Virus record (IMG/VR): IMGVR_UViG_3300044609_000960
Location: 1 to 64,000 of that record
Strand: one strand, 5' to 3'
From: a virus
Length of the DNA: 64,000 bases
The position numbers and the translations under genes are program-made. Below are positions 3,982 to 58,487 of this stretch, piece after piece; position 1 is the first letter of the stretch, and the number at the start of each line of letters is the position of its first letter. The notes under the pieces are model-generated. The model made no database searches. It was given only the letters and a program-made list of their open reading frames with translations, and was not told the origin of the DNA.

Positions 3982-5883
3982 GTGTCAACAGAAATCATCC
4001 CAGTATCCCTAAAAGAAGAGTTACAGAGTAGTTATCTCACCTACTCCGTGGCAATCTTCAACCGGGCTCTACCCTCTGTCACCGATGGACTTAAGTCCGC
4101 TCAACGCCGAATTATCCTCGGCCTTAAAGATCTCAATCTTCGTCCTGATGGCCAATACAAGAAAGTATCGAGGCTCGAGGGCCATGTCCTCGGCTCGTAC
4201 CACCCGCAAGGCGGCTGCGCTGGTACGGCTATTAATATGGGTCAATCTGATTCTTTTCGGTATCTTCTTACTGACATCCATGGCAACGTTGGAGGTAGTA
4301 TTCAATCCGGGCCGAGCGTCGGTCAATCCATTTCTGAAGACGCTCCGGCAGCTGCAAGATACCTTGAGGTGAAGACTAGCGCCCTCACCCAACGACTCTA
4401 TATCACCGAGATAGATAAGTATAGTTGCCAATGGCGAGATAACTATGACGGCTCGACGAAAGAAGTCATTGAGATTGTCCCTGTTATTCCGGCCCTTCTT
4501 ATCAATGGGGCGCAGGGTATCGCGGCAGGTTACGCCTGCCATCATGTCCCTTATAACCTTTCCGAGGTGATCAAGGGCACTATTGAATATATTAAAAATC
4601 CACGCATTACTCCTAAGCGTCTGTTCTCCTTTATCAAAGGTCCTGATCTACCCAATGGTGCTCGGATTTTAAACGATGAGGCGGTGTTTAATGCTTTTGA
4701 AAAGGGCAGCGGATCTCTCAAGACTTATGGTACTTGGGAGGTAAAAAAAGTCCAACACGGAAAACGGTCTACTCGAGATGCTATTATTATTACCTCTTTG
4801 GCTAGCGGGAGCTCAGAACGCTTCCTTGAAAAACTCAAGGACTCAGTCGAATCAGAAAAAATCGTGGGTGTCATCGATGCCCAAGACCACTCGTCCCGCG
4901 ACGGTATTGAAATCCAAGTCATCCTAAAGACCGGAGTAGAAGCAAATACCGTAATCTCCCAGCTTTTGGCCTTTACTAATCTGGCTGATAGCATCGGCGT
5001 TAACGCCACGGCCATTTCTAGCGGCCTCCCTACCATCTTTGGGGTGAAGGATATCATCGCTGAGTGGTACGGGGCACGGTGCAAGGCCCTAAAGTCTAGG
5101 TATGTGGCTGAATGCGACAAACTTTCTTCCCGAGTCCACATCCTCGACGGCCTTCTAACCATCCTGGCAGATATCGACGAGGTAATTAAACTCATTAGGG
5201 GTTCGAAGACCAAGGAGATCGCGGCTGGGAAGCTTAAAAAGCGTTGGAAGTTGAGCGATATCCAGGTCCAGGCGGTCCTCTCTATGCCTCTCAGCCGATT
5301 GGTGGGGGTAGAACGCCTTGAACTGGAGAGTGAGAAGGCCGATCTTGAGGCAAAAATCGCCAATCTGACCGATATCGTGACAAATCCAGTCAAAATGGAT
5401 GAACATATCATCTCCCAGATCAATGACTTCAAGGAGTTTGTTGATAAGCGCCGGAGTATGTTGGTTGAAAAGCAAGAAATTGGCATTGAGAAAGCCAAAA
5501 TCACCACTCAATCTGGCACACGTAGGGTGAAGATGCCGAGTCCAAAGGATCGGATCAAAGAAGAGGGGAAAAGGATCGGTATGAAGAGGTCGGAGTTGAG
5601 TAAATTCTTCACCCAAATGGCCGGAAAGACCAACATCAAGGCAGAATGGGATCAATTTAAAGAAGATTGGAATCACTCTCAACAACTCTCAACCCGTAAA
5701 GGGCGCGCAGAGCGCAAAATCCTACTCGATAAGATAAAAGAAGGGGCGGTGAAGAAAGGAATGCCATCTAGGGGTAAGCATTCTTGGGCTTCTTTCATGA
5801 AAGAGAGGGAGGATGCTAAGATTAAGAGCATTGAGAATGACCTCAAGGAATGGATGAAGAACATTCCTAAGCTTAGCAAATAA
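3982..5883 (+). CDS. Type II DNA topoisomerase, cleavage (A / gp52-like) subunit
   Basis: This subunit breaks and rejoins duplex DNA during phage replication. The N-terminus matches the GyrA/ParC/gp52 breakage domain: SVTDGLKSAQRRI (residues 32-44), the GGSIQSG loop, and AARYLEV, whose Tyr127 is the expected catalytic tyrosine, preceded by Arg126. NGAQGIAAGYAC follows, then the tower and coiled-coil regions. At 633 aa it is far longer than T4 gp52 (about 440 aa); the extra ~130 C-terminal residues are Lys/Arg-rich and helical, perhaps a DNA-binding tail replacing the gyrase pinwheel. The start is GTG at 3982. The ATPase subunit is not in this window. A hairpin terminator follows the stop. Confidence 0.93.
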   Translation: MSTEIIPVSLKEELQSSYLTYSVAIFNRALPSVTDGLKSAQRRIILGLKDLNLRPDGQYKKVSRLEGHVLGSYHPQGGCAGTAINMGQSDSFRYLLTDIHGNVGGSIQSGPSVGQSISEDAPAAARYLEVKTSALTQRLYITEIDKYSCQWRDNYDGSTKEVIEIVPVIPALLINGAQGIAAGYACHHVPYNLSEVIKGTIEYIKNPRITPKRLFSFIKGPDLPNGARILNDEAVFNAFEKGSGSLKTYGTWEVKKVQHGKRSTRDAIIITSLASGSSERFLEKLKDSVESEKIVGVIDAQDHSSRDGIEIQVILKTGVEANTVISQLLAFTNLADSIGVNATAISSGLPTIFGVKDIIAEWYGARCKALKSRYVAECDKLSSRVHILDGLLTILADIDEVIKLIRGSKTKEIAAGKLKKRWKLSDIQVQAVLSMPLSRLVGVERLELESEKADLEAKIANLTDIVTNPVKMDEHIISQINDFKEFVDKRRSMLVEKQEIGIEKAKITTQSGTRRVKMPSPKDRIKEEGKRIGMKRSELSKFFTQMAGKTNIKAEWDQFKEDWNHSQQLSTRKGRAERKILLDKIKEGAVKKGMPSRGKHSWASFMKEREDAKIKSIENDLKEWMKNIPKLSK

Positions 5884-15415: not shown

Positions 15416-15492
15416 GCCACTATAGCTCAGCTGGATAGAGCAACGGTTTTGTAAACCGTAGGTCGTCGGTTCAAGTCCGACTTGTGGCTCCA
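15416..15492 (+). tRNA. tRNA-Thr (UGU)
   Basis: GCCACTA/TTGTGGC acceptor, GCTC..GAGC D-arm, anticodon loop TTTGTAA (TGT), T-arm GTCGG TTCAAGT CCGAC, CCA encoded at 15490-15492. Confidence 0.93.
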
Positions 15493-15566
15493 CGGGATAT
15501 AGCGCAGCTTGGTAGCGCGGATGCTTTGGGAGCATTAGGTCGCGGGTTCGAATCCTGCTATCCCGA
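15493..15566 (+). tRNA. tRNA-Pro (UGG)
   Basis: CGGGATA/TATCCCG acceptor, anticodon loop TTTGGGA (TGG), T-arm GCGGG TTCGAAT CCTGC. CCA is not encoded. It abuts the tRNA-Thr directly. Confidence 0.93.
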
Positions 15567-15570
15567 TATT

Positions 15571-16245
15571 ATGGAACTAAATAGACGTTACTTTGGTAAA
15601 ACTATTGTTTTTTGCCTTCCAGGATCTCATTATTCTGGGAGGTTTTTAGTACGATTTACTCAACTCCTACTAGATTGTAGACAAATTGGAATAAATACTA
15701 TCATCTCCCAAGACTATAGTTCCATGGTTAACTACGCTAGGTGTAAAGTAATGGGTGCAAATGTCACCCGTGGCAAGTACCAAGTTCCATTTGGAGGGGC
15801 AATAGAATATGACTACATGATGTGGATTGATAGTGATATTGCATTCACCTCAGCGGATTTTTTTAAACTCCTTGAGCAGGACAGAGATATAGTCTCTGGT
15901 TGGTATATTCAACCCGGAGGATTAACTCCTATTGTTGAAAAAATGGATGATGAATATTTCAAATCTCATGGATATTTTGAATTTATCTCCGAAGATGCCA
16001 TGAGTAAACGTAATTCGCTATTTAAAGCTGATTATGTTGGTTTTGGTTGGGTGCTAATAAAACGAGGCGTGTTTGAATCCATCTCCTATCCATGGTTTGC
16101 GCCAAAACTTATAAAAATAGGTGAAGATTTAGAAGATGTATGTTCAGAAGATGTCTCCTTCTGCATCGATGCAAAAAATGCTGGTTATGACATATGGGTT
16201 GATCCAAAAATCCGAGTGGGCCATGAAAAGGTATTGACCATCTGA
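15571..16245 (+). CDS. GT2/GT-A-like glycosyltransferase, 224 aa
   Basis: Starts at ATG 15571, five bases after the tRNA-Pro; a longer frame from inside the tRNA is rejected. Residues 80-92 (YDYMMWIDSDIAF) hold the DxD metal/nucleotide motif (Asp87, Asp89). LLEQDRDIVSGWYI and the late SEDVSFCIDAKNAGYDIWVDPKIRVGHEK region give the ED acceptor motif and a final His. Similar stand-alone glycosyltransferases occur in cyanophage tRNA regions; the acceptor is unknown. Confidence 0.8.
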   Translation: MELNRRYFGKTIVFCLPGSHYSGRFLVRFTQLLLDCRQIGINTIISQDYSSMVNYARCKVMGANVTRGKYQVPFGGAIEYDYMMWIDSDIAFTSADFFKLLEQDRDIVSGWYIQPGGLTPIVEKMDDEYFKSHGYFEFISEDAMSKRNSLFKADYVGFGWVLIKRGVFESISYPWFAPKLIKIGEDLEDVCSEDVSFCIDAKNAGYDIWVDPKIRVGHEKVLTI

Positions 16246-16479: not shown

Positions 16480-17337
16480 ATGAAAAAACTCGTCTCAGCT
16501 ATCGGTGCACTCGGCATAATCGCCCCTGGTGTTGCCACTGCAGCTCCTCAAGGTCAATTCCCCGATGTCCAGCCGACCAACTGGGCGTATCAGGCAATCA
16601 TGAACCTCAAGGATAAGTATGGTTGCGCTGTTGGATTCCCCAATGGTACTTTCCAGCCCGGCGAACCTACCACTCGTGCTCAACTTGCTGCTCTGACTAA
16701 TGCTTGTCTCGATCGCATCGAGGAATATGCAGATGCAAAAGATGCTGCACTTGCTCAGGCTCTCCGTGCCCAATTCGCTGGCGTTGATACTCGTGTAACT
16801 AAACTTGAGCGTATTGCTGCTCAAAAAGCCCAAGGTGTTAACAACTACCTAGGTGCTGGCGTTCTTCTGAATAAGCAAGGTATTGATGGCAATGGTTATA
16901 CTGAAAACCGTACTATCTCTGGTGGTACTGTCCAAGGTCGTTACGCTGTAAAGACCTTTAATAACCAAAATGCTGTTTCTGTCCGTCCTTATGCTAATTT
17001 CGTTGGCACTCCTGCCGGTGAGATTGGAGCAGCAGGTGGTGGTCTTCTCTCTTATGACTGGAGTATCGCCCGTAAAGCTGGCGTAAGCGCCGCTAATATC
17101 TACACCGGTGTCGGTTACCAAGTTCCTTTTGTGAATAATACCGCAGCCAATTTCCAATCTGCTATTGGTGAAAAAGGCCAAGTAATTCTTGCCTTGGGCA
17201 TCGAAGGTCGTCTGACCAATTCCTTGGTTGGTTTTGCTGATCTCAAGTTCCCTACCACCAATGCTTCTAATAGCTACGGTGCAACCAATGGTACCTATTC
17301 CCCTGTATTCACTACTGGTCTCGGTTTCAAATTCTGA
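16480..17337 (+). CDS. SLH-domain outer-membrane porin-like protein, 285 aa
   Basis: A signal peptide (MKKLVSAIGALGIIAPGVATAA) is followed by one S-layer homology domain (residues about 27-80: FPDVQPTNWAYQAI, GFPNGTFQPGEPTTRAQLAAL, NACLDRIEEY), a short coiled coil (TRVTKLERIAAQ) and a strand-rich barrel ending in ...GLGFKF with the terminal Phe usual for outer-membrane barrels. This is the architecture of cyanobacterial SLH/OprB porins such as SomA/SomB, but only about half their length, so the barrel is reduced. In hosts the SLH domain anchors to peptidoglycan-linked polymer. Codon use is GC-rich and host-like. hli follows with a one-base stop/start overlap. The role in infection is unknown. 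Confidence 0.85.
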   Translation: MKKLVSAIGALGIIAPGVATAAPQGQFPDVQPTNWAYQAIMNLKDKYGCAVGFPNGTFQPGEPTTRAQLAALTNACLDRIEEYADAKDAALAQALRAQFAGVDTRVTKLERIAAQKAQGVNNYLGAGVLLNKQGIDGNGYTENRTISGGTVQGRYAVKTFNNQNAVSVRPYANFVGTPAGEIGAAGGGLLSYDWSIARKAGVSAANIYTGVGYQVPFVNNTAANFQSAIGEKGQVILALGIEGRLTNSLVGFADLKFPTTNASNSYGATNGTYSPVFTTGLGFKF

Positions 17338-20101: not shown

Positions 20102-20131
20102 TTGACATGACCCCCATCCCTGGAGTATGAT
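20102..20131 (+). promoter_or_regulatory. Sigma70 promoter, -10 inside terminator loop
   Basis: TTGACA (20102-20107), 18-bp spacer, TATGAT (20126-20131). The -10 box sits exactly in the loop of the terminator hairpin that ends the upstream transcript, packing an end and a start signal together ahead of the gene at 20154. Confidence 0.7.
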
Positions 20132-20150
20132 TGCTCTAGGGATTTTTTTT
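20116..20150 (+). terminator. Terminator with embedded promoter
   Basis: ATCCCTGGAG (20116-20125) pairs with CTCTAGGGAT (20134-20143, one G-U), followed by eight T. Confidence 0.8.
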
Positions 20151-20153
20151 GTC

Positions 20154-20678
20154 ATGAACATCTTCTTCCTTGATCACGATCCTAAGACTGCAGCGGAGTA
20201 CCATTGCGATAAGCATGTCAACAAGATGATCATCGAGCATCTTCAAATGATGAGTGTTGCTCTTGCCCATCATGGATTGAATCCTGCTAGGAAGAAAGAC
20301 GGAGAGTTCTATAAAGTCCGCGGGTTTAAGAATCATCCATGCACTCTTTGGGTGAAGGAGTCAGTTTGTAACTTTATGTGGACTTACAAACTAACTTACC
20401 ACCTCTGCGAGGAATTTGAGAAGCGATATGGAAAACCTCACTCGGGGGTTAATAGTCTTGAGTCTATTGATCTACTCGAGGTAAATAAGTTATATCCAAA
20501 TAATGGCTATACTGAGCCTGCTCAAGCAATGCCAGACTACTGCAAAGTTGATGGTTTCCCGGTTAAAGCTTATCGTAATTATTACAACTGGGCCAAGTGG
20601 CGATTTGCTACTTGGAAGACCCAAGAACCTGATTGGTGGGCACCTGGATGTTGCTTAGAGGCTAAAGATGAATACTGA
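20154..20678 (+). CDS. Conserved phage protein, CDKHVxKM family, 174 aa
   Basis: MNIFFLDHDPKTAAEYHCDKHVNKMIIEHLQMMS is the hallmark N-terminus of a family common in cyanophages and other phages, rich in conserved His, Cys and Lys. Later HPCTLWVKES and YRNYYNWAKW recur in the family. Some relatives carry a pyrimidine-dimer glycosylase-like label; I cannot confirm that activity. The ATG at 20154 follows the terminator/promoter unit; an upstream in-frame start would lie in the hairpin. It overlaps the next gene by 11 nt. Confidence 0.75.
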   Translation: MNIFFLDHDPKTAAEYHCDKHVNKMIIEHLQMMSVALAHHGLNPARKKDGEFYKVRGFKNHPCTLWVKESVCNFMWTYKLTYHLCEEFEKRYGKPHSGVNSLESIDLLEVNKLYPNNGYTEPAQAMPDYCKVDGFPVKAYRNYYNWAKWRFATWKTQEPDWWAPGCCLEAKDEY

Positions 20679-21315
20679 AAAATATTGCCTCATTGGTGAT
20701 TTGCATGGTCGGATTGATACTCTTGATAAGATTTTAGATAAATCTGAAGGGTATAAATATATCTTCATGGGAGATACAATCCACCACAAACCATTTTTTA
20801 AACGTTCTAAAAGAACTTCTCCGCTTAGAATGCTAAGCAAAATTAAGAAGTTAGTAAAACAAAACCGAGCAACTTTAATCCTTGGTAATAACGAAAACTA
20901 TATTCTTAAAAATCTTCTCCTCCCAGAAGAAGATATCCTGCAAAAAGAAGTTAGGTACACTTTGGGATGCTTACGAGAACTATCTCTTGATGACAGACTC
21001 GATTACCTCCACTGGTTGACTACGTCCCCATTGACCTATGAATTCGAGTCATACGGAAAGATTTATCGTTGCGCCCATGCCTACTACAATCCTAACTACA
21101 CTCCAGAGACCCGAAATAATGTACTCACTGGCATAGGATATCCTTGGTTTAAGACTGATAAGCTCGAAGATCATATTAAACTCGATGCGGAGTATTTCTT
21201 TGGCCATTATGGCTATCCGTACTTCCGCAAAAACCTAAAAATCATCGACGCAACTAACTTCGAAGGGGTGGGGGTATATTACACGGATCGTGAAGAATTC
21301 TTAATCTATTACTAA
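20668..21315 (+). CDS. Calcineurin-like (PPP-type) phosphoesterase relative, 215 aa
   Basis: The metal-site motifs of ApaH/PP2A-type phosphatases appear in order but are altered. GDLHG (residues 10-14) is intact. GDTIHHK (35-41) stands for GDxVDRG. GNNEN (73-77) stands for GNHE, so the catalytic His is Asn. Later His137 (CAHAYYNP) and His180 (FFGHYGYP) are kept. The binuclear metal site may be partly retained with weaker or different activity. It is co-transcribed with the CDKHVxKM gene. Confidence 0.75.
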   Translation: MNTEKYCLIGDLHGRIDTLDKILDKSEGYKYIFMGDTIHHKPFFKRSKRTSPLRMLSKIKKLVKQNRATLILGNNENYILKNLLLPEEDILQKEVRYTLGCLRELSLDDRLDYLHWLTTSPLTYEFESYGKIYRCAHAYYNPNYTPETRNNVLTGIGYPWFKTDKLEDHIKLDAEYFFGHYGYPYFRKNLKIIDATNFEGVGVYYTDREEFLIYY

Positions 21316-21359: not shown

Positions 21360-24053
21360 ATGTCAAAGTTGAATTCCCTTGGATATGCTGTTCTTTCCGA
21401 TGTGATGAACTCGAGGGTGTTTGGTGAAGGAACAACTCAGACAGAGCCTGATGAAAAGCATCTCAGAAACGTCAAGCAGGAGATGGAGAAGTTTGGCGTA
21501 GAGTTTCCTGTAAAAAATCCCAGCAATTTCTTCATCGAGGACTTTGCTCTACCTGAACTAAAAGCAAACAACATCAAGGATCATTTTGATGCTATCTCCA
21601 AAGAAGTCTGTGGGGATAAAGTTGAATTGATGAAGGATTTTGCTTATACCGAAATCGGTGAAGCACCGGATAAAACTAAATTTTTTCTGTATGCTGGTTG
21701 GGTCAAGTATCCTTTCAATGGCGAACCAGAAGTTGTCGATGGAATCGAAGAGAATATTGCAGTCTATGACTGTGAGACCTTTGTAAAGGGTAGTGACTTT
21801 GGCCATCCCATCTTGGCCACTGCGGTTACTCCTAAGGCATATTATATTTGGATGCATCCCGCGTTCGTAAATAGTAAGACAGAATATAAGCCAATGCTTG
21901 TGCCCATTGGAGGCAGGGATAAGATTCTAGTTGCTCATAACGTAGCATTTGACCGAGCTCGGACTCAAGAAGCCTATGTCCTTGGCAAAACAAATTCTTG
22001 GTTTGATACGATGTCAGCTCATATTAATGTGAGTGGATTGGCCTCTGGTCAACGTTGGTGGTATTTGCAAAAAGCGGCCAAGAAAGCTACCTATAAAGCC
22101 GATCCTATCTGGGCCGATAAGGGATCTATGAATAATCTTATCGATTGTTATAACTTCCATTGCCAGCCAATGGTCCCTCTCGAGCAAGAAGATAAAAAGA
22201 TCCGAAATATCTTCGTAGATGCCAATTCCATGGAGGAATTTGTTCCCGAACGAGATGATCTTATTGCCTATGCTCTTAACGACGTAAAAATCACCTTTGA
22301 ACTATATTCCATTCTATTCCTCAAATACCTTCAAAATAATCCGTCATTAACGACTCTTGCTGGCCATTTTGGTATCTCTTCTGCTCACCTTCCGGTAGTG
22401 AGTGATTGGGAGAAGTGGTTTGATGATTGTGAGAAGCAATGGGAAACTTCGCTCTCCCGCCAAGAAGAGATCCTTTGCAAAATGGCCGAGGAGGTGTATC
22501 AGTCTTGGAATGAAGGAGAGATTACTGATGAAGATATTAAAGCAGATCCATGGCTCTCCCAACTTGACTGGGAAGCAAACTTTAAACTTACAAAGGCTGG
22601 GAAACCCAGCTCGAAGTGGTACGGAGTGCCTAAGTGGGTGAGGAGCGTATCTGCTAAAGACCTCATCGATGGCAAACCTATAATCCAAGACATCTCAACC
22701 AAAAACCGCCTATCCCATCTCCTCCTCCGTCTCAAGTGGAATGATCAACCTCTGAAGTTTTTCACTGATAAAGGTTGGTGCTTCATGGACGAAGATCTTG
22801 GGGACTATGTACGTATCCCTCATACTGATGGGGAAGGAGTTAATGTCGGAGGAGTATTAACCAAAGATTATGCTGAGGATTTCGAATCTGGGCAATTAAG
22901 TTCCGATCTTCCTGAGGCAAAAGAACTCATCAAACTTGCAATTAATGTGGCATACTGGACTTCGGTAAGGAGTCGTGTGAGGGAACAACTCGTAGAGGAG
23001 ATCAAAACGCCACAGGGAAATAAGTTTAAGATGATTGTTCCCGCCGCAGTTCCTCATAACACTTCGACCAATCGCGCCGGGGAGAATCTTTGGTTGACTG
23101 TTCCTGATCCGAAATATGACAAGATCGGTAGTGAAATCAAGACTCGTGTCCAAGCACCTGAGGGCTATGTATTTGTCCAATCCGACTTCGACGCCCAAGA
23201 GGCAGTAGTTGCGTCGATCTTTGCCGACTCATATCACAAGATTGCCGGAAGCACACAATTTTCCCACTCAATTCTCGCTGGGTCTAAAGATGATGGGACG
23301 GACATGCATTCCATGACTGCAAAAGCTATTGGGATCTCTAGGGCTATTGCAAAGGGATGTAATTATGGCATGTTGTACGGGTGTGGGGCTAAAACTCTTG
23401 CAAATACAATCCGCAAGGGAAACAAAAATATCCCAATGAAACAAGCAGTTGAGATGGGAAATAAACTCATTAAAATTAAGAAGGGTACTAAGGCCTCTAG
23501 TGTCTCTCAGACACTTATCGGTGGTTCTGATTCCTATGCTTACAATGAAATGGCACGTATTGCCAATCTTCCCTCTCCCATTAATCCTCTAAGTGGTACA
23601 AAGATGTCCACGGCCTTCCGCCCGACATCTGTTGGCACTGATTTTTGGACCATGCGTAACAACTGGTGTATTCAATCCACTGGTAGTGCTATGCTCCATG
23701 CCTTCATGACTGCCATGGAATGGTTGATTGCAGAGTATGAACTGGACGCTGAGTTCTGTATGTCAGTTCATGACAGTATCCTGTATCTCTGTCCAGAGTC
23801 CCAGGCTGAGGGGGTTGCAGCTTTGTTCCAAGTAGCTCATGCTTGGTGCTGGGCTTGGATGAGGTATAACTACGGGATCTATGAACTTCCAGTAGCAAAT
23901 GCCTGGCTCTCTTCTATTGAGATCGATAAAATCTTCCGTAAAGCTGCCACTGCGAACACTAAGACCGTTTCTCAGCAAAAATCCGAACTTGATGGTGAAT
24001 CTCGAACCATCCAAGATCTCATCCCAATTTTCAACTCTATGTTTACAAAATGA
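21360..24053 (+). CDS. Family A DNA polymerase, mitochondrial Pol gamma-like
   Basis: Replicative polymerase with proofreading, 897 aa. Exonuclease motifs: YDCE (Asp137, Glu139), HNVAFD (Asn194-Asp198), YALND (Tyr304-Asp308). Polymerase motif A is QSDFDAQE (Asp609), motif B RAIAKGCNYG (Arg661, Lys665, Tyr669), motif C SVHDS (His804, Asp805). Many segments outside the catalytic motifs mirror Pol gamma in order: TLAGHFGISSAHLPV..W, DPWLSQLDW, HTDGEGVNVG..TKDY, GSEIKTRVQAPEGY, GTDMHSMTAKAIGISR, and NNWCIQST..MEWLIAEYELDAEFCMSVHD then IEIDKIFRK. Pol gamma's usual HDE is HDS here. A long spacer (about 355-480) separates the exonuclease and polymerase domains as in Pol gamma. ATGA overlap with the next gene. 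Confidence 0.95.
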   Translation: MSKLNSLGYAVLSDVMNSRVFGEGTTQTEPDEKHLRNVKQEMEKFGVEFPVKNPSNFFIEDFALPELKANNIKDHFDAISKEVCGDKVELMKDFAYTEIGEAPDKTKFFLYAGWVKYPFNGEPEVVDGIEENIAVYDCETFVKGSDFGHPILATAVTPKAYYIWMHPAFVNSKTEYKPMLVPIGGRDKILVAHNVAFDRARTQEAYVLGKTNSWFDTMSAHINVSGLASGQRWWYLQKAAKKATYKADPIWADKGSMNNLIDCYNFHCQPMVPLEQEDKKIRNIFVDANSMEEFVPERDDLIAYALNDVKITFELYSILFLKYLQNNPSLTTLAGHFGISSAHLPVVSDWEKWFDDCEKQWETSLSRQEEILCKMAEEVYQSWNEGEITDEDIKADPWLSQLDWEANFKLTKAGKPSSKWYGVPKWVRSVSAKDLIDGKPIIQDISTKNRLSHLLLRLKWNDQPLKFFTDKGWCFMDEDLGDYVRIPHTDGEGVNVGGVLTKDYAEDFESGQLSSDLPEAKELIKLAINVAYWTSVRSRVREQLVEEIKTPQGNKFKMIVPAAVPHNTSTNRAGENLWLTVPDPKYDKIGSEIKTRVQAPEGYVFVQSDFDAQEAVVASIFADSYHKIAGSTQFSHSILAGSKDDGTDMHSMTAKAIGISRAIAKGCNYGMLYGCGAKTLANTIRKGNKNIPMKQAVEMGNKLIKIKKGTKASSVSQTLIGGSDSYAYNEMARIANLPSPINPLSGTKMSTAFRPTSVGTDFWTMRNNWCIQSTGSAMLHAFMTAMEWLIAEYELDAEFCMSVHDSILYLCPESQAEGVAALFQVAHAWCWAWMRYNYGIYELPVANAWLSSIEIDKIFRKAATANTKTVSQQKSELDGESRTIQDLIPIFNSMFTK

Positions 24054-40136: not shown

Positions 40137-41117
40137 TCAGGCAACAGGATTGTTGAAGATGAAACCAGAACCACACTTGCCATTTTCACCCATGCCAACG
40201 AGCTCGAAGCTACGCTCAACAAGGATGTCGCCGGTGAATACTCTGCGCTCGATGTTGAAGCGCTCAGGAGTGGCGATAGGATAGCCACTGAGGGTATAGG
40301 TATAGGCGAAAGCAGGGTTGCCATAGTTGGCATCAAGAGCAGGCATGAAGCCATCGGTAGCTCCTGAAGGATGGTAGAAGAGAACAGCAACGTTGTTGTA
40401 GATATTCTCAAGAGTACCATCAGCAGCAAGCTTAAGACGACGTGCTACGCGGATCTCGTCAAGACCAAAGATCTGAGCGAGGGTCTTCTCATCAACGAGA
40501 ACACCGCGCTGCATGAAGTCACGAATACGCTTGTTACGCTTGAGGGCGTTAAAGGCGTCAGGTGAGATAACCATCTTGTTAGGATAGACACCGATCTGAG
40601 AGCGAACTTGCTCTTTGGCGTCGTCCATGAGGACCTCAACGTCAGCAGTTGGGCTATTGAACTGATCAGCACCACCATTATAGGTAGAAAGATCAAGAAC
40701 ATTACCAGTCTCATACTGGGTAGAATCGGTTACAATAGTAGCAACCTGAACTTCCCAAGACTGCATGAGGCGGTTGGCAGCGTCCTTAGCAGCAAACTGA
40801 CGAAGGTCAATTTGAGCAGCGCCGTTCTTGGCTTCAGCAGCGACTTCTTCGGCGATTTCCCAGCTGATCGCTTCCTGACGGAGAGCGAACGAACGGGTTC
40901 CGAATTCGTTCTGGATCTTCTGGATGTTAGTTCCAGGAGCGCGGAGGAACGACTGAGCCGCAAAAGCCTCCTTACCAAAAACGAGTGTGCGTCCAGCTCT
41001 GGTATTCATAGATACCGAGGGAGCGAAAAATGTAGCTACACCTTCAGCATTTTTGTAGCCTTGGGCGAGTTGCGTAAGAATTGGGTCAATTACGCGGACC
41101 TGATCTAGATTCATCAT
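40137..41117 (-). CDS. Major capsid protein, 326 aa
   Basis: HK97-fold-type capsid subunit by context and pattern: LTQLAQGYKNAEGVATFFAPSVSM, RSFALRQEAISWEIAEEVAAEAKNG, DAANRLMQSWEVQVA, GVYPNKMVISPDAFNALKRNKRIRDFMQ and the VAVLFYHPSG strand. It sits between decoration and connector genes. Its codons are the most GC-rich and uniform of the block, as expected for the most abundant protein. A strong terminator follows. Confidence 0.85.
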   Translation of the reverse strand: MMNLDQVRVIDPILTQLAQGYKNAEGVATFFAPSVSMNTRAGRTLVFGKEAFAAQSFLRAPGTNIQKIQNEFGTRSFALRQEAISWEIAEEVAAEAKNGAAQIDLRQFAAKDAANRLMQSWEVQVATIVTDSTQYETGNVLDLSTYNGGADQFNSPTADVEVLMDDAKEQVRSQIGVYPNKMVISPDAFNALKRNKRIRDFMQRGVLVDEKTLAQIFGLDEIRVARRLKLAADGTLENIYNNVAVLFYHPSGATDGFMPALDANYGNPAFAYTYTLSGYPIATPERFNIERRVFTGDILVERSFELVGMGENGKCGSGFIFNNPVA

Positions 41118-43581: not shown

Positions 43582-46500
43582 TCAGAATACTGATGCAGTA
43601 TTGAGAAGATAATTAAATCTTTCTTCATTTCTGGAGAATGAGTCGCTCAGTTGAGCCACTTGTCCCGCGGGGGTTCTTACGATAGTAACGAGTAGACGTT
43701 CTAGAGTTGGGCTTGTGGCCACATAGACATCGAGTCGTACAGATCCTCTTTCAAGGTCTTCGTTAGTATTATTAGCTGAAGAACAAACCACAAGATAGGC
43801 CTGTTCTGGTCTCGAGCCAAATAACGCGCCTTGACGGAAGAATTGTCCACATACCTGTGAGGCAATAGACTTAACTCTCGCGTATACTGTGCCCGCTGAA
43901 TCAATCTGCTCAAATAGGATGTCGTCAAAACTACGTCCTAGGACATCAATGAGAACATTGAGAATAGCACGAGTATTAACAAATTTAAACAGAGGATTGG
44001 GGGAAAGAGTTCTAGCTCCCCAAGTTACGATACCGCGGTTAGGAAGTGAACGAATTGGGTTCAGACCTAAGGCATAAGTAACTTCTTGTTGCTGAGCAGA
44101 AATTTCAAATTTCAGTCCAGCTGCACCACGTAGTGGATAACGAGCGCCGGCGGGAGGTTGCTGGAAACCTTCATTGACATATCTCGAACAGGCAATACCT
44201 GCTACATAACTTGAAGGAGCAATATAGCGATCATCAAGATTCTTCACATATGGGGCATAGAACGCGCCATGGCCATATGGAGCACCAGCGATACCCTTGA
44301 GATAATCAAGTTCATCTTGGACATTGGTGAGAGAAATCTCATCAGCTCCGCAGTCGATCAGAGCGAGATGTTGTGTTCCAACGATTCCTTCAGTAGAACC
44401 GAGTTTACCCTCTGCAGCCTTAAGAAGGGCTTGAGTAACTTTAACCCGCTCTTGACGAGCTTCGGTTTTGCTTGCAAGATCACCACCAGCCTCATATGTG
44501 AGAACTGTATAAGCCTCAGGAGCCAAGAGGAAACCAGGAGCTAATACTCTAGAATCCATACCCTGTTCGATGGCATAGACAAAATCATTTGCCTTTGCAT
44601 TTAGAGTGTACTTATATGACTCATAACCGGGGTTCTGATCAACTGAAACTAATTTGATAACATTAGAGTCGGGAAGACCAGCTCTTGTTGTTCCAGGATT
44701 AATCGGAGAACTTACGCCATTACGAGAAGTTACCTTAACCTTGAGTACATATTCATGCGAATAGAAACCATTAGGAACTGATTTATCAAGCGCGTAAGAA
44801 GCACCTGCTGTAATAGTTACATTTGCGGGTGTTACAGTGGCTGTGTCATTATCTGTTACGCCAGTAACAGTGAATCTAATTCCATTAGCAGTGAAGATAT
44901 CACCTTCAGCGAGTTCAGTTGTAAATGAGGTTAAGGTTCCTGTTACGGTACCACCACTAATTGCAATTGAACCAGTGAGTGCAATTTCATCAAGTTCTGG
45001 ACGAAGATACGGAGCACCTGCATCGGCTGTAAGAAGAGCAACTTGGTGACCATTGTTAGGAACGTAGGTGTCCCCAGAAACATTAGTTCCAGTAGCAACT
45101 GCTTCAACTTCATAATATCCATCAAGTTCTTTCTCGGTTAGGATTGCTTGAAGTTGGTCTCTAAGAGCATTAGCTAGATCATCTGGCTTAGCTCCATTAA
45201 CAATGATTACGCGATCTTCACCAGCTACATTGACATAAAATGCCTGAACTGAGTCGGGAAGATATCCATTGCGAGTGGTTATGCCACCAAGAGTTGTAAC
45301 TTCGCCACTTGGAACTGCATCTTGTCCACCACTTTGAATCTTGGCAAAAGTCGTAGTGCCGAGGTCGTAGGACCAGTAAGCAGCACTTGCATCAGCCCAA
45401 GATGTAGGAACTGTGTTTCCGGTGGAAAGATCCTTAGAAACAGCAACGATCTTATTATCAGGGATAGAAGCAGCATCTGCGTACACGTTCTGATCGATTA
45501 AGAAAGCCTTAACGATAGCAGACTGATCAGTCGCGGGGTCATAAGCGAGTTTTCTAACCGTTACAGCAGTTCCAGGAGCACCTGTAATCTGTACAAATGT
45601 GCCTCCAGAAGATGTTGCGAGTTGAATCGCATTTCCAGACTTATTAACTACGTAATATACTGAATTAAGTGTAAGATTTAATGTTCCTGCATTTGTTGTT
45701 TCAAGAACAACCTTATCACCATTGGCAAGTCCAGTTGAACTGTCTAATGTTACAGTGTCATTAACCGAGTCAAAAGCCGTAGTTCCGGCATTATATTCTG
45801 TAGAACTTTCAAGAAGGAAAGAACTAAGTTGACTTCCAGATACAAAGAGTACACCCTCCCCTGTAGCTTGGTCTCTAGATACACAACGGAAGTTAATCTC
45901 TTTTACCGAAGTATAAAATTTAACAACAGACTGCGTATTAAGATTTAAAGGAGAAGCGTAAGTAGTATCGCTAAATTGATAAGCTACAAACTTATCAATC
46001 TGAGGAAGACTTCTGGTATCTTTAGAAAGAATTCTAAATTTACCCTGAGTTGCCTCGGTGGCATTCTGCTCAATGCGATAATAATCAGCGAAACCATCAC
46101 CGTTCCCAGCGAGGAAAAGGTATAGATCACGAGCGTTATCTACTGCATCAAGAGCAGTTGTTGTGATTACACGAATTTCATCACCCTCATTATCGTTAAC
46201 TCCGATCGGGGTTCCGAAATACCTACCATTAATCTTAATTGCAAAAGCGTTATATCCAGCGCCAGCACCTGAAGCGGCGATGTCTACAACGGTTTCAGGA
46301 GTTGGAGTTACTCTAGTAAAATAGAGGATACCATTAACACCTACATTATCAAAGAAAGCTCTAACAGCATCGTATGATGCAAGAGCACCTTTGTTCCCTA
46401 CAGGAACACTTCCACCAACCTTCTCAAGATAATCGGCAACTGAACCGATTTGAGTAGGGGCGTAGGGCTCAAGAGCAGAATAGGCATTAATAGCGTCTTC

Positions 46501-46650
46501 TCCATAATAATCTTCGGTGGGTGTAGTACCAAAGATATATCCCACTGCATGAGTTGCAATGGGCTGCGGAAGAGAGCCAGTTGTTGCCTGAGCAACAAAG
46601 ACCCCCGGCCTATTCAATGTCGCGGCATTGATTCTGATTGGATTGGCCAT
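43582..46650 (-). CDS. Contractile tail sheath protein, 1022 aa
   Basis: The N-terminal RPGVFVAQ segment and the C-terminal domain (RGIVTWGARTLSPNPLFKFVNTRAILNVLIDVLGRSFDDILFEQID, then VRLDVYVATSPTLERLLVTIVRTP) are standard sheath handshake regions. The protein is about 350-500 aa longer than typical sheaths because of inserted beta modules, two of which (about 290-366 and 557-622) recur in other virion proteins of this phage. These would lie on the outside of the sheath. No AGTTTAAAG box is obvious; TGTTTAAGG lies 34 nt upstream. Confidence 0.92.
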   Translation of the reverse strand: MANPIRINAATLNRPGVFVAQATTGSLPQPIATHAVGYIFGTTPTEDYYGEDAINAYSALEPYAPTQIGSVADYLEKVGGSVPVGNKGALASYDAVRAFFDNVGVNGILYFTRVTPTPETVVDIAASGAGAGYNAFAIKINGRYFGTPIGVNDNEGDEIRVITTTALDAVDNARDLYLFLAGNGDGFADYYRIEQNATEATQGKFRILSKDTRSLPQIDKFVAYQFSDTTYASPLNLNTQSVVKFYTSVKEINFRCVSRDQATGEGVLFVSGSQLSSFLLESSTEYNAGTTAFDSVNDTVTLDSSTGLANGDKVVLETTNAGTLNLTLNSVYYVVNKSGNAIQLATSSGGTFVQITGAPGTAVTVRKLAYDPATDQSAIVKAFLIDQNVYADAASIPDNKIVAVSKDLSTGNTVPTSWADASAAYWSYDLGTTTFAKIQSGGQDAVPSGEVTTLGGITTRNGYLPDSVQAFYVNVAGEDRVIIVNGAKPDDLANALRDQLQAILTEKELDGYYEVEAVATGTNVSGDTYVPNNGHQVALLTADAGAPYLRPELDEIALTGSIAISGGTVTGTLTSFTTELAEGDIFTANGIRFTVTGVTDNDTATVTPANVTITAGASYALDKSVPNGFYSHEYVLKVKVTSRNGVSSPINPGTTRAGLPDSNVIKLVSVDQNPGYESYKYTLNAKANDFVYAIEQGMDSRVLAPGFLLAPEAYTVLTYEAGGDLASKTEARQERVKVTQALLKAAEGKLGSTEGIVGTQHLALIDCGADEISLTNVQDELDYLKGIAGAPYGHGAFYAPYVKNLDDRYIAPSSYVAGIACSRYVNEGFQQPPAGARYPLRGAAGLKFEISAQQQEVTYALGLNPIRSLPNRGIVTWGARTLSPNPLFKFVNTRAILNVLIDVLGRSFDDILFEQIDSAGTVYARVKSIASQVCGQFFRQGALFGSRPEQAYLVVCSSANNTNEDLERGSVRLDVYVATSPTLERLLVTIVRTPAGQVAQLSDSFSRNEERFNYLLNTASVF

Positions 46651-56534: not shown

Positions 56535-58487
56535 ATGGCAGACGATCGCCCTTCGATAACAAAACCAAAGACCGGGTATTATGATAGATACTTTAGTCTT
56601 GGTGTGGGTCAGGGCGGCCTTGCGGGGTATAAGGCCGATCCTTATGCCTTTGCGGGTAATGGATACATCACAGGTGGCACGATCCTTCCTCGTCGTGATG
56701 ATATCCTTATTGAGGAAGGTGGTGGCGGGCCTCGAGCAATCGAGAAGTACATGCGGCTGTTTAACGACAGCCAAATTATCTCTGCGTGGGAAAAATTAAC
56801 AGGAGAGATCGTTCAGAGAAAGTGGGAGGTAGATCCTGCAAGTCCATCTGACCGTGATGAAGAGGTAGCAGAATTTGTCCGCCAAGTGCTTTATCGCATG
56901 GGGACAAATACTCGTCAGGCCTATGGCAAGGAGATGCTAGTTACATCTAACTCAGCATTTGATACTTTTATCCGAGGAATGTGTGAATCACTGATCCTAG
57001 GAATCAGTATCGGTGAGATCTGCTGGATGAGACAGGGAAACTACATCGTTCCTTCTGAAATTAAAATTAGAGACCCAAGAAGATTCCTCTTTGTACTCAA
57101 TGAAGATGGAACTATATCTCCGCGTCTTCTCACAGTGGAGAGTTCGGTAGAGGGTATTGCTTTGCCCCTCCGCTCCATGGTCATCCATAGGCACTGGTGC
57201 TATAGTAACTTCATGGATCCATATGGCACAGGACTTGGTCGCCAACTCTATAGCCTTGTGGAATTTAGACGGACTTTAATGTCCTTCTGGTTGCAATATG
57301 CCGATAAGCATACAACACCCACAGCAGTTGGTAAATTTAGCCTTGGCACCCCAGAAGACGAGGTAAATTCACTCTTTACTGCGCTCCAACGTCTTGGCCA
57401 AGAGACAGCCATCGTAATTCCTGATGAGATGGATATTAGTTGGCTTGAAAGTCAAGGCCGTTCTGAAGTGTATGAAAAACTCATCGAGTATGTTGATCAG
57501 CAGATTAGCTTTGTAATTAATGGAGAGAATACTGTTGGCCAAGAGACAGGAAATGTTGGTTCTTATGCCCGAGATCAAATCTCCGACTCGGTACGTATGC
57601 GTAAAGCTAAAGCGTTCTCAGAAGAACTTGATGAGACGCTCAATGCTACTCTTATACGATGGATTGTTGAACTTAATTATCCAGGGGCGCCTGTACCTAG
57701 ACTTCGTAGAAACTTTGATGATCTAGAACAACGTGAAGATCCAGTCAAGATTGTTCAAATGCTTACTCAACTCCAGGCTATAGGATACGAGGTCAAGGAT
57801 ATTGACTGGATGAGAGATAAACTTGAGATTCCTTCCTTAGCGAAGATGGAAATGAATCCGATGATGGGTGGTGCCCCAGGTGGAATGCCGCCCGGCGGAG
57901 CACCTCCAGAGGGTGGTGGTCAAGCACCGATGTCTGAGGACAAGAATCCAGAAGATGTGAAAAATGGTTCTATGGGAGCCTTCGGAGCCGATCCTAATGC
58001 CCATCTTGAGTTATTTGATTTCTCTGAATTCGATGAGGAAGGCGATCTTGAAGATGAGAGTCAGAAAGATAAGGTTGCTAAGATCATTGCCGCTAAATTT
58101 GATGGTGGTCTTGATGATGTTGGGTTCCAGAGAATTATTTCTACGGGTGACTCAGAGGCAGACGCATCTAACTCTAGGTATCATATTGATGAGTATACCT
58201 CGCCAGGTGAAATTGCTCATGCCGCACGAAGACTTATCGAAGAGATCAAAAAGGCTCCTTATATCTCTGTAGAAGACTCGATAATGAGTAGTTCATTTGA
58301 GATGGAACTTGGGCCTATTGAAGGTCAGATTAGAGTCGATATGGTGTCTGAATGTGATGTTGAAAAACTTATTGATCTATATTCTAAGATTTACAGACTA
58401 GATCGTAAAGTGGTATATAAAGAATGTGTAGTGGTGGATTGCCAGAAGGCTGGGTATTGGAAGTATTTTGCACCATATTTTATGTAG
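56535..58487 (+). CDS. Portal protein, Mu gp29 (DUF935)-like, 650 aa
   Basis: Forms the DNA gate at the head vertex. DUF935 features: RLFNDSQIISAWEKLTGEIVQRKWEV, FIRGMCESLILGISIGEICWM, PSEIKIRDPRRFLF, GTGLGRQLYSLVEFRRTLMSFWLQYADKHTTPTAVGKF, IVIPDEMDISWLES and a helical barrel-side end. After about residue 430 there is a Pro/Gly/Met linker and a ~150-aa C-terminal extension not found in Mu. Good context with tube and fibres downstream. Confidence 0.85.
   Translation: MADDRPSITKPKTGYYDRYFSLGVGQGGLAGYKADPYAFAGNGYITGGTILPRRDDILIEEGGGGPRAIEKYMRLFNDSQIISAWEKLTGEIVQRKWEVDPASPSDRDEEVAEFVRQVLYRMGTNTRQAYGKEMLVTSNSAFDTFIRGMCESLILGISIGEICWMRQGNYIVPSEIKIRDPRRFLFVLNEDGTISPRLLTVESSVEGIALPLRSMVIHRHWCYSNFMDPYGTGLGRQLYSLVEFRRTLMSFWLQYADKHTTPTAVGKFSLGTPEDEVNSLFTALQRLGQETAIVIPDEMDISWLESQGRSEVYEKLIEYVDQQISFVINGENTVGQETGNVGSYARDQISDSVRMRKAKAFSEELDETLNATLIRWIVELNYPGAPVPRLRRNFDDLEQREDPVKIVQMLTQLQAIGYEVKDIDWMRDKLEIPSLAKMEMNPMMGGAPGGMPPGGAPPEGGGQAPMSEDKNPEDVKNGSMGAFGADPNAHLELFDFSEFDEEGDLEDESQKDKVAKIIAAKFDGGLDDVGFQRIISTGDSEADASNSRYHIDEYTSPGEIAHAARRLIEEIKKAPYISVEDSIMSSSFEMELGPIEGQIRVDMVSECDVEKLIDLYSKIYRLDRKVVYKECVVVDCQKAGYWKYFAPYFM

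Follow-up and report, generated by a model that had tools for sequence, protein, structure and literature searches.

The polymerase gene described here encodes a whole-length homologue of the mitochondrial replicase Pol gamma, and its product is almost certainly the replicase of an S-TIM5-like marine cyanomyovirus. The gene lies in the window, the first 64 kb of the 159,262-base virus record IMGVR_UViG_3300044609_000960; its motifs and the other genes discussed are located in Table 1. From an N-terminal domain the protein runs through a DEDD-type proofreading exonuclease and a short spacer to a family A polymerase domain, and it would probably work as a single subunit that extends primers and proofreads the product. 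Because Pol gamma of cyanophages has already been published, the gene is not new in kind; it is an orthologue of the S-TIM5 polymerase, 72% identical over 100% of the length.

Table 1 Positions of the polymerase, its motifs and other genes of the contig (window positions except where marked)
Feature	Position	Strand	Basis or remark
Pol gamma-type family A DNA polymerase, 897 aa, ATG start	21360..24053	+	sequence, tree, predicted fold, orthology
Exo motif I DCETFV, residues 137-142 (D137, E139)	21768..21785	+	aligned to human/yeast Exo I
Exo motif II HNVAFDRAR, residues 193-201 (D198)	21936..21962	+	alignment
Exo motif III YALNDVKIT, residues 304-312 (Y304, D308)	22269..22295	+	alignment
Reduced spacer, residues ~355-480	22422..22799	+	alignments and predicted fold
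Pol motif A SDFDAQEA, residues 608-615 (D609, E614)	23181..23204	+	alignment
Pol motif B GISRAIAKGCNYGMLYG, residues 658-674 (R661, K665, Y669, Y673)	23331..23381	+	alignment
Pol motif C MSVHDSILY, residues 801-809 (D805, Ser806)	23760..23786	+	alignment
Pyrimidine dimer DNA glycosylase-like protein (PF03013), upstream neighbour of polymerase	20127..20678	+	58% to S-TIM5 orthologue
Calcineurin-like phosphoesterase (PF00149), upstream neighbour of polymerase	20668..21315	+	57% to S-TIM5 orthologue
Topoisomerase II/gyrase A-type subunit	3982..5883	+	PF00521
Major head protein	40137..41117	-	86% to S-TIM5
Tail sheath	43582..46650	-	65% to S-TIM5, best segment
Portal protein	56535..58487	+	60% to S-TIM5
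DUF5906 primase/helicase	138108-139949		contig position, beyond the 64-kb window

Sequence and predicted fold of the polymerase

Judged by its sequence, the open reading frame is a Pol gamma homologue, with a similarity far beyond chance. The protein matched PF18136 (mitochondrial polymerase exonuclease domain) with E=1.2e-53 and PF00476 (DNA_pol_A) with E=8.3e-15, and it belongs to PHROG 22619 (A-HIS1 and the window protein were scanned). When all PDB sequences were searched with phmmer, yeast Mip1 (9c51) was the best match (E=1.6e-117) and mammalian Pol gamma scored 1e-91 to 1e-99 (mouse, 1.3e-99), whereas the top Pol I match reached only 8.9e-4. The Pol gamma alignment pieces span residues 3-893, and the homology to yeast Mip1 and human POLG, at ~27% identity, runs through the whole chain and includes the exonuclease and polymerase residues.

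The preliminary description had held that this family A polymerase carries exonuclease and polymerase motifs and follows Pol gamma segment by segment, in blocks that T7-type and Pol I polymerases do not share. All of the motifs were located, the three exonuclease motifs (DxE, HNxxxDR and YxxxD) inside the Pol gamma-specific exonuclease domain, and both catalytic Asp residues of the polymerase domain and the four motif B residues are kept. The blocks (TLAG..LPV..W, DPWLSQLDW at residues 396-404, H.DG..VNVG..KD, GSEIK..VQAP, GTDMHSMTA..GISR and the IDKIFRK end) have their counterparts, column for column, in human, mouse and yeast Pol gamma and are absent from the aligned polymerases of T7, E. 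coli (Pol I), D29 and BS162P1, so this part of the description is borne out. Compared with close environmental relatives, the gene has a dN/dS of ~0.02-0.04, a sign of strong purifying selection, and is therefore maintained.

The AF2 model, computed from an alignment of the window protein with viral-contig proteins, had a mean pLDDT of 86.3 and a pTM of 0.84. In Foldseek every Pol gamma entry ranked first (E down to 2.6e-60); the query-normalised TM was 0.84-0.88 for the best Pol gamma matches over nearly the whole chain, while Klenow, Pol I and T7 reached 0.34-0.40. Among the entries of the viral library, G0KYA6 (959 aa, TM 0.89) led by far, together with the pieces A0A4Y5TS79 and A0A4Y5TQ19; from their protein lengths, we take them to be the A-HIS and Mic1 Pol gammas.

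The POLG spacer is much longer than that of the window protein and has an accessory-interacting part. Between DPWL and the P.W..R block, at the accessory-interacting position, the alignment gives ~64 residues in human POLG versus ~5 in the phage, so that this metazoan subdomain, a loss of ~60 residues, is missing from the window polymerase. From the GW block to H.DG..VNVG, the processivity part, the lengths are ~125 residues in human, ~39 in yeast and ~6 in the phage, which is thus ~120 residues shorter than human POLG there. The blocks DPWL..LDW, P.W..R, L.W and GW are retained, and the spacer as a whole is closer to that of yeast Mip1 than to that of human POLG. Thus, of the POLG-like spacer layout that had been expected, the Pol gamma fold with a reduced spacer stands, but the human layout is present only in part, without its accessory-interacting and processivity stretches. 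Because the accessory-binding part of the human spacer is missing, the enzyme would work free of an accessory subunit, as a Mip1-like single-subunit replicase.

Motif C departs from the usual HDE: Ser806 occupies the Glu position next to the retained second catalytic Asp. HDS is found across the S-TIM5-type lineage, the divergent L069 included (63 window-lineage matches, none with Glu), whereas the S-CBWM1, A-HIS, Mic1 and L074 matches have HDE, as do eukaryotic Pol gamma, T7 and Pol I in the alignment. Since the whole lineage carries HDS, the motif count alone does not prove activity, even though the catalytic Asp pair is kept. We know of no report of this change in S-TIM5-type Pol gamma, nor of any biochemistry on the S-TIM5 polymerase.

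The source phage and its replication genes

The contig is collinear with the genome of S-TIM5 (genus Aurunvirus): of its 211 ORFs with 90 aa or more, 86 have a match among those of S-TIM5, and the S-TIM5-type structural module and gene order are present. Identities to S-TIM5 are 86% for the major head protein, 71% for TerL, 75% for ribonucleotide reductase and 62% for the primase. The polymerase of S-TIM5 and S-TIM54/61/66 (NC_019516 gp158) resembles that of the window in its HDS motif and its upstream neighbours as well, the order from the glycosylase-like gene to the polymerase being the same, and differs from it by 28% residue divergence. The contig carries psbA and eleven tRNAs, and the phage brings along genes for nucleotide metabolism and for a cytosine methylase. 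In a megablast search with window positions 1-25000, the best coverage by any phage record was 5%, at psbA and its neighbours, and the source phage is therefore a relative rather than a strain of S-TIM5; it is an S-TIM5-like marine cyanomyovirus of a different species and probably also of a different genus.

Two other reading frames of the window deserve a remark. The ORF at 15484-16245 overlaps a tRNA-Pro gene (15493-15566), and its true start probably lies further downstream. The product of the ORF at 16480-17337 carries a signal peptide, is SLH-like at its start, is without a PHROG match and is reminiscent of cyanobacterial outer-membrane porins.

Mitochondria have a trio of phage-like genes, for Pol gamma, a T7-like RNA polymerase and Twinkle. 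Neither a T7-type RNA polymerase (PF00940) nor a Twinkle/DnaB-type helicase (PF03796) was detected in any of the five phages scanned (this contig, S-TIM5, S-CBWM1, Mic1 and A-HIS1), and the T7 control was positive for both. The contig and A-HIS1 have in common a DUF5906 primase/helicase of family phrog_25243, whose gene in A-HIS1 adjoins polg. As the contig has no DnaB-type helicase, we infer the replisome partner from this gene content: the window polymerase, with the activity expected of its family, would extend primers laid down by the phage's own DUF5906 protein. According to the aligned residues, nucleotides would be selected by the O-helix residues R661, K665, Y669 and Y673, synthesis would depend on metal ions held via D609 and D805, and D137, E139, D198 and D308 would carry out 3'-5' proofreading.

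Motifs A, B and C and the DEDD exonuclease are common to all of family A, and the likeness to Pol gamma might have gone no further than these motifs, the enzyme being a phage polymerase of the usual T7-like or bacterial Pol I-like sort. That identity is refuted, and we give it practically no chance: the E-values for Pol gamma and Pol I are more than 100 orders of magnitude apart, the TM is 0.85 for Pol gamma versus 0.38 for the T7/Pol I type, PF18136 is matched, and in the polymerase-domain tree rooted with T7, E. coli Pol I, D29 and BS162P1 the Pol gamma-like set, to which the protein belongs, is separated from these outgroups with 100/100 support. Of the features of T7-like phages (Autographiviridae), clustering with T7 gp5, a T7-type RNA polymerase and a gp4 helicase were all absent. 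A further reading accepts the homology but takes HDS and the reduced spacer as signs of a shifted function, such as a repair or modified-nucleotide polymerase that is not the main replicase. The fixation of Ser in place of Glu throughout the S-TIM5-type lineage and the phage's nucleotide metabolism and methylase genes would suit such a role, but the catalytic Asp, motif B and exonuclease residues are all intact, selection on the gene is strongly purifying, and Pfam and PHROG scans of the replication-gene cluster found no second polymerase domain. We consider the shifted function improbable and retain the role of main replicase.

Extent and lineages of phage Pol gamma

Cyanophage Pol gamma has been reported for A-HIS1/2 (Chan 2011), S-TIM5 (Sabehi 2012), S-CBWM1 (Xu 2018) and Mic1 (2020), as summarized in PMC7156551 and PMC4928673. 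From these enzymes it was proposed earlier that the mitochondrial gene stems from phages or has a common origin with theirs (PMC7156551, PMC4928673, PMC3914683). Several cyanophage records of this kind are annotated as DNA polymerase gamma in GenBank. IMG/VR was scanned for relatives in successive rounds, which brought to light first 43, next 65 and finally 202 stretches or loci. These belong to the S-TIM5-type lineage, of which the window is a member, to a large lineage of the S-CBWM1 type, to the A-HIS and Mic1-type lineages, and to a singleton, L170. A close-relative scan of IMG/VR with A-HIS1 alone found nothing.

The Acaryochloris phages A-HIS1/2 and the Synechococcus phage S-CBWM1 represent separate lineages, 31-35% identical to the window protein, and have Phe where it has Tyr at the nucleotide-selecting position of motif B; A-HIS1 nevertheless has PHROG 22619 and the primase family in common with the window phage. 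The S-CBWM1-type Pol gamma of L150 lies on an IMGVR contig of 279,339 bases, far larger than the cultured Pol gamma phages that were found. The Microcystis phage Mic1 type also has a full-length Pol gamma homologue, but one that is 31-33% identical to the window protein; its new environmental members (L161-L165) are 62-75% identical to Mic1. L170 has an uninterrupted 873-aa Pol gamma-like stretch (L170:5392-8010) with HDE, ~28% identical to any other, and is apparently a new deep phage lineage.

Some of the polymerase genes are interrupted. In the Mic1 type, L161 has the gene in one piece, while in L162 (9830-10720) and in Mic1 itself (L047:11254-11560) an insert follows GADVDS at motif A; the insert of L162 contains an HNH endonuclease-like ORF. 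The L069 gene (9138-11187) has two interruptions, one at motif A and one at motif B, and each insert has an ORF that by eye resembles a homing endonuclease of the GIY-YIG type. A search of the L069, Mic1 and L074 inserts with Rfam returned no group I intron, and the label of intron for these three refers to the homing-endonuclease-like ORFs seen by eye.

Outside phages, a first scan of bacterial and archaeal genome contigs found no relatives, nor did a scan of plasmids. The second scan of bacterial and archaeal contigs found only two, L092 and L093, from one uncultured Microbacteriaceae MAG; between them they carry both ends of a Pol gamma of the S-CBWM1 type, and they probably represent phage sequence that was binned with the MAG. 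Weak distant matches (L180-L228) were set aside, being mostly short and at shared family A motifs, and the four that were checked (L180-L183) are T7-like.

Relation to the mitochondrial enzyme

No relatives of the mitochondrial replicase are known on the prokaryote side other than the Pol gammas of phages, which are therefore evidence on its origin. Eukaryotes were represented in our trees by three opisthokont Pol gammas (human, mouse and yeast), as aligned PDB pieces, and POP sequences were left out. The unrooted full-length tree unites eukaryotic Pol gamma with that of the Mic1-type phages (100/100) and places the window lineage together with that of S-CBWM1 (97/97). In the rooted polymerase-domain tree, whose outgroup branches are long, Mic1 and the eukaryotes group with 91/99 support and the deeper order is unresolved. 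Forcing the window lineage together with the eukaryotes was rejected (p-AU 0.0044 and 0.0006), whereas a single clade of all phages beside the eukaryotes was not (p-AU 0.22 and 0.31). From these results, the Mic1-type phages are nearest to mitochondrial Pol gamma and the window gene is a cousin, and either direction of transfer is compatible with the trees. The suggestion that a phage replicase of this type bears on where the mitochondrial enzyme came from thus survives in its first part, as the phage does have a Pol gamma-type replicase, but the nearer relatives are Mic1-type phages and the origin is not decided (p-AU 0.31).

One interpretation, which we put forward tentatively as having nearly an even prospect of being right, is that opisthokont mitochondrial Pol gamma came from a Mic1-type phage polymerase, within a broad phage Pol gamma family in which the S-TIM5 type is a deep cousin, and that its uptake was independent of that of the phage-like RNA polymerase and Twinkle, since no Pol gamma phage examined carries either of these. 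Phages may instead have acquired Pol gamma from eukaryotes, or the phage and mitochondrial lineages may be sister clades from an older common source; the long root branches and the all-phage clade that the outgroup-rooted test leaves standing would fit both. This is rather doubtful, though with a substantial chance of being correct: at least five deep phage lineages (S-TIM5-type, S-CBWM1-type, A-HIS, Mic1-type and L170) and more than 200 contig stretches stand against one eukaryotic branch, the eukaryotes join the Mic1-type phages inside the unrooted phage diversity, and bacterial and archaeal genomes yielded only the one MAG in two scans.

The window itself adds an orthologue of a published case and a way into the larger phage Pol gamma family. 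With its HDE-to-HDS change and minimal spacer, the S-TIM5-type enzyme is a natural variant for dissecting those parts in Pol gamma. Given a well-sampled set of eukaryotes, the contig stretches collected here, the intact Mic1-type gene of L161 and the deep L170 allow the question of which lineage was the donor to be put to the test. If the descent from a Mic1-type phage polymerase is true, what is new would be the naming of the donor lineage and the separate arrival of the three mitochondrial genes, the phage origin itself having been proposed before.
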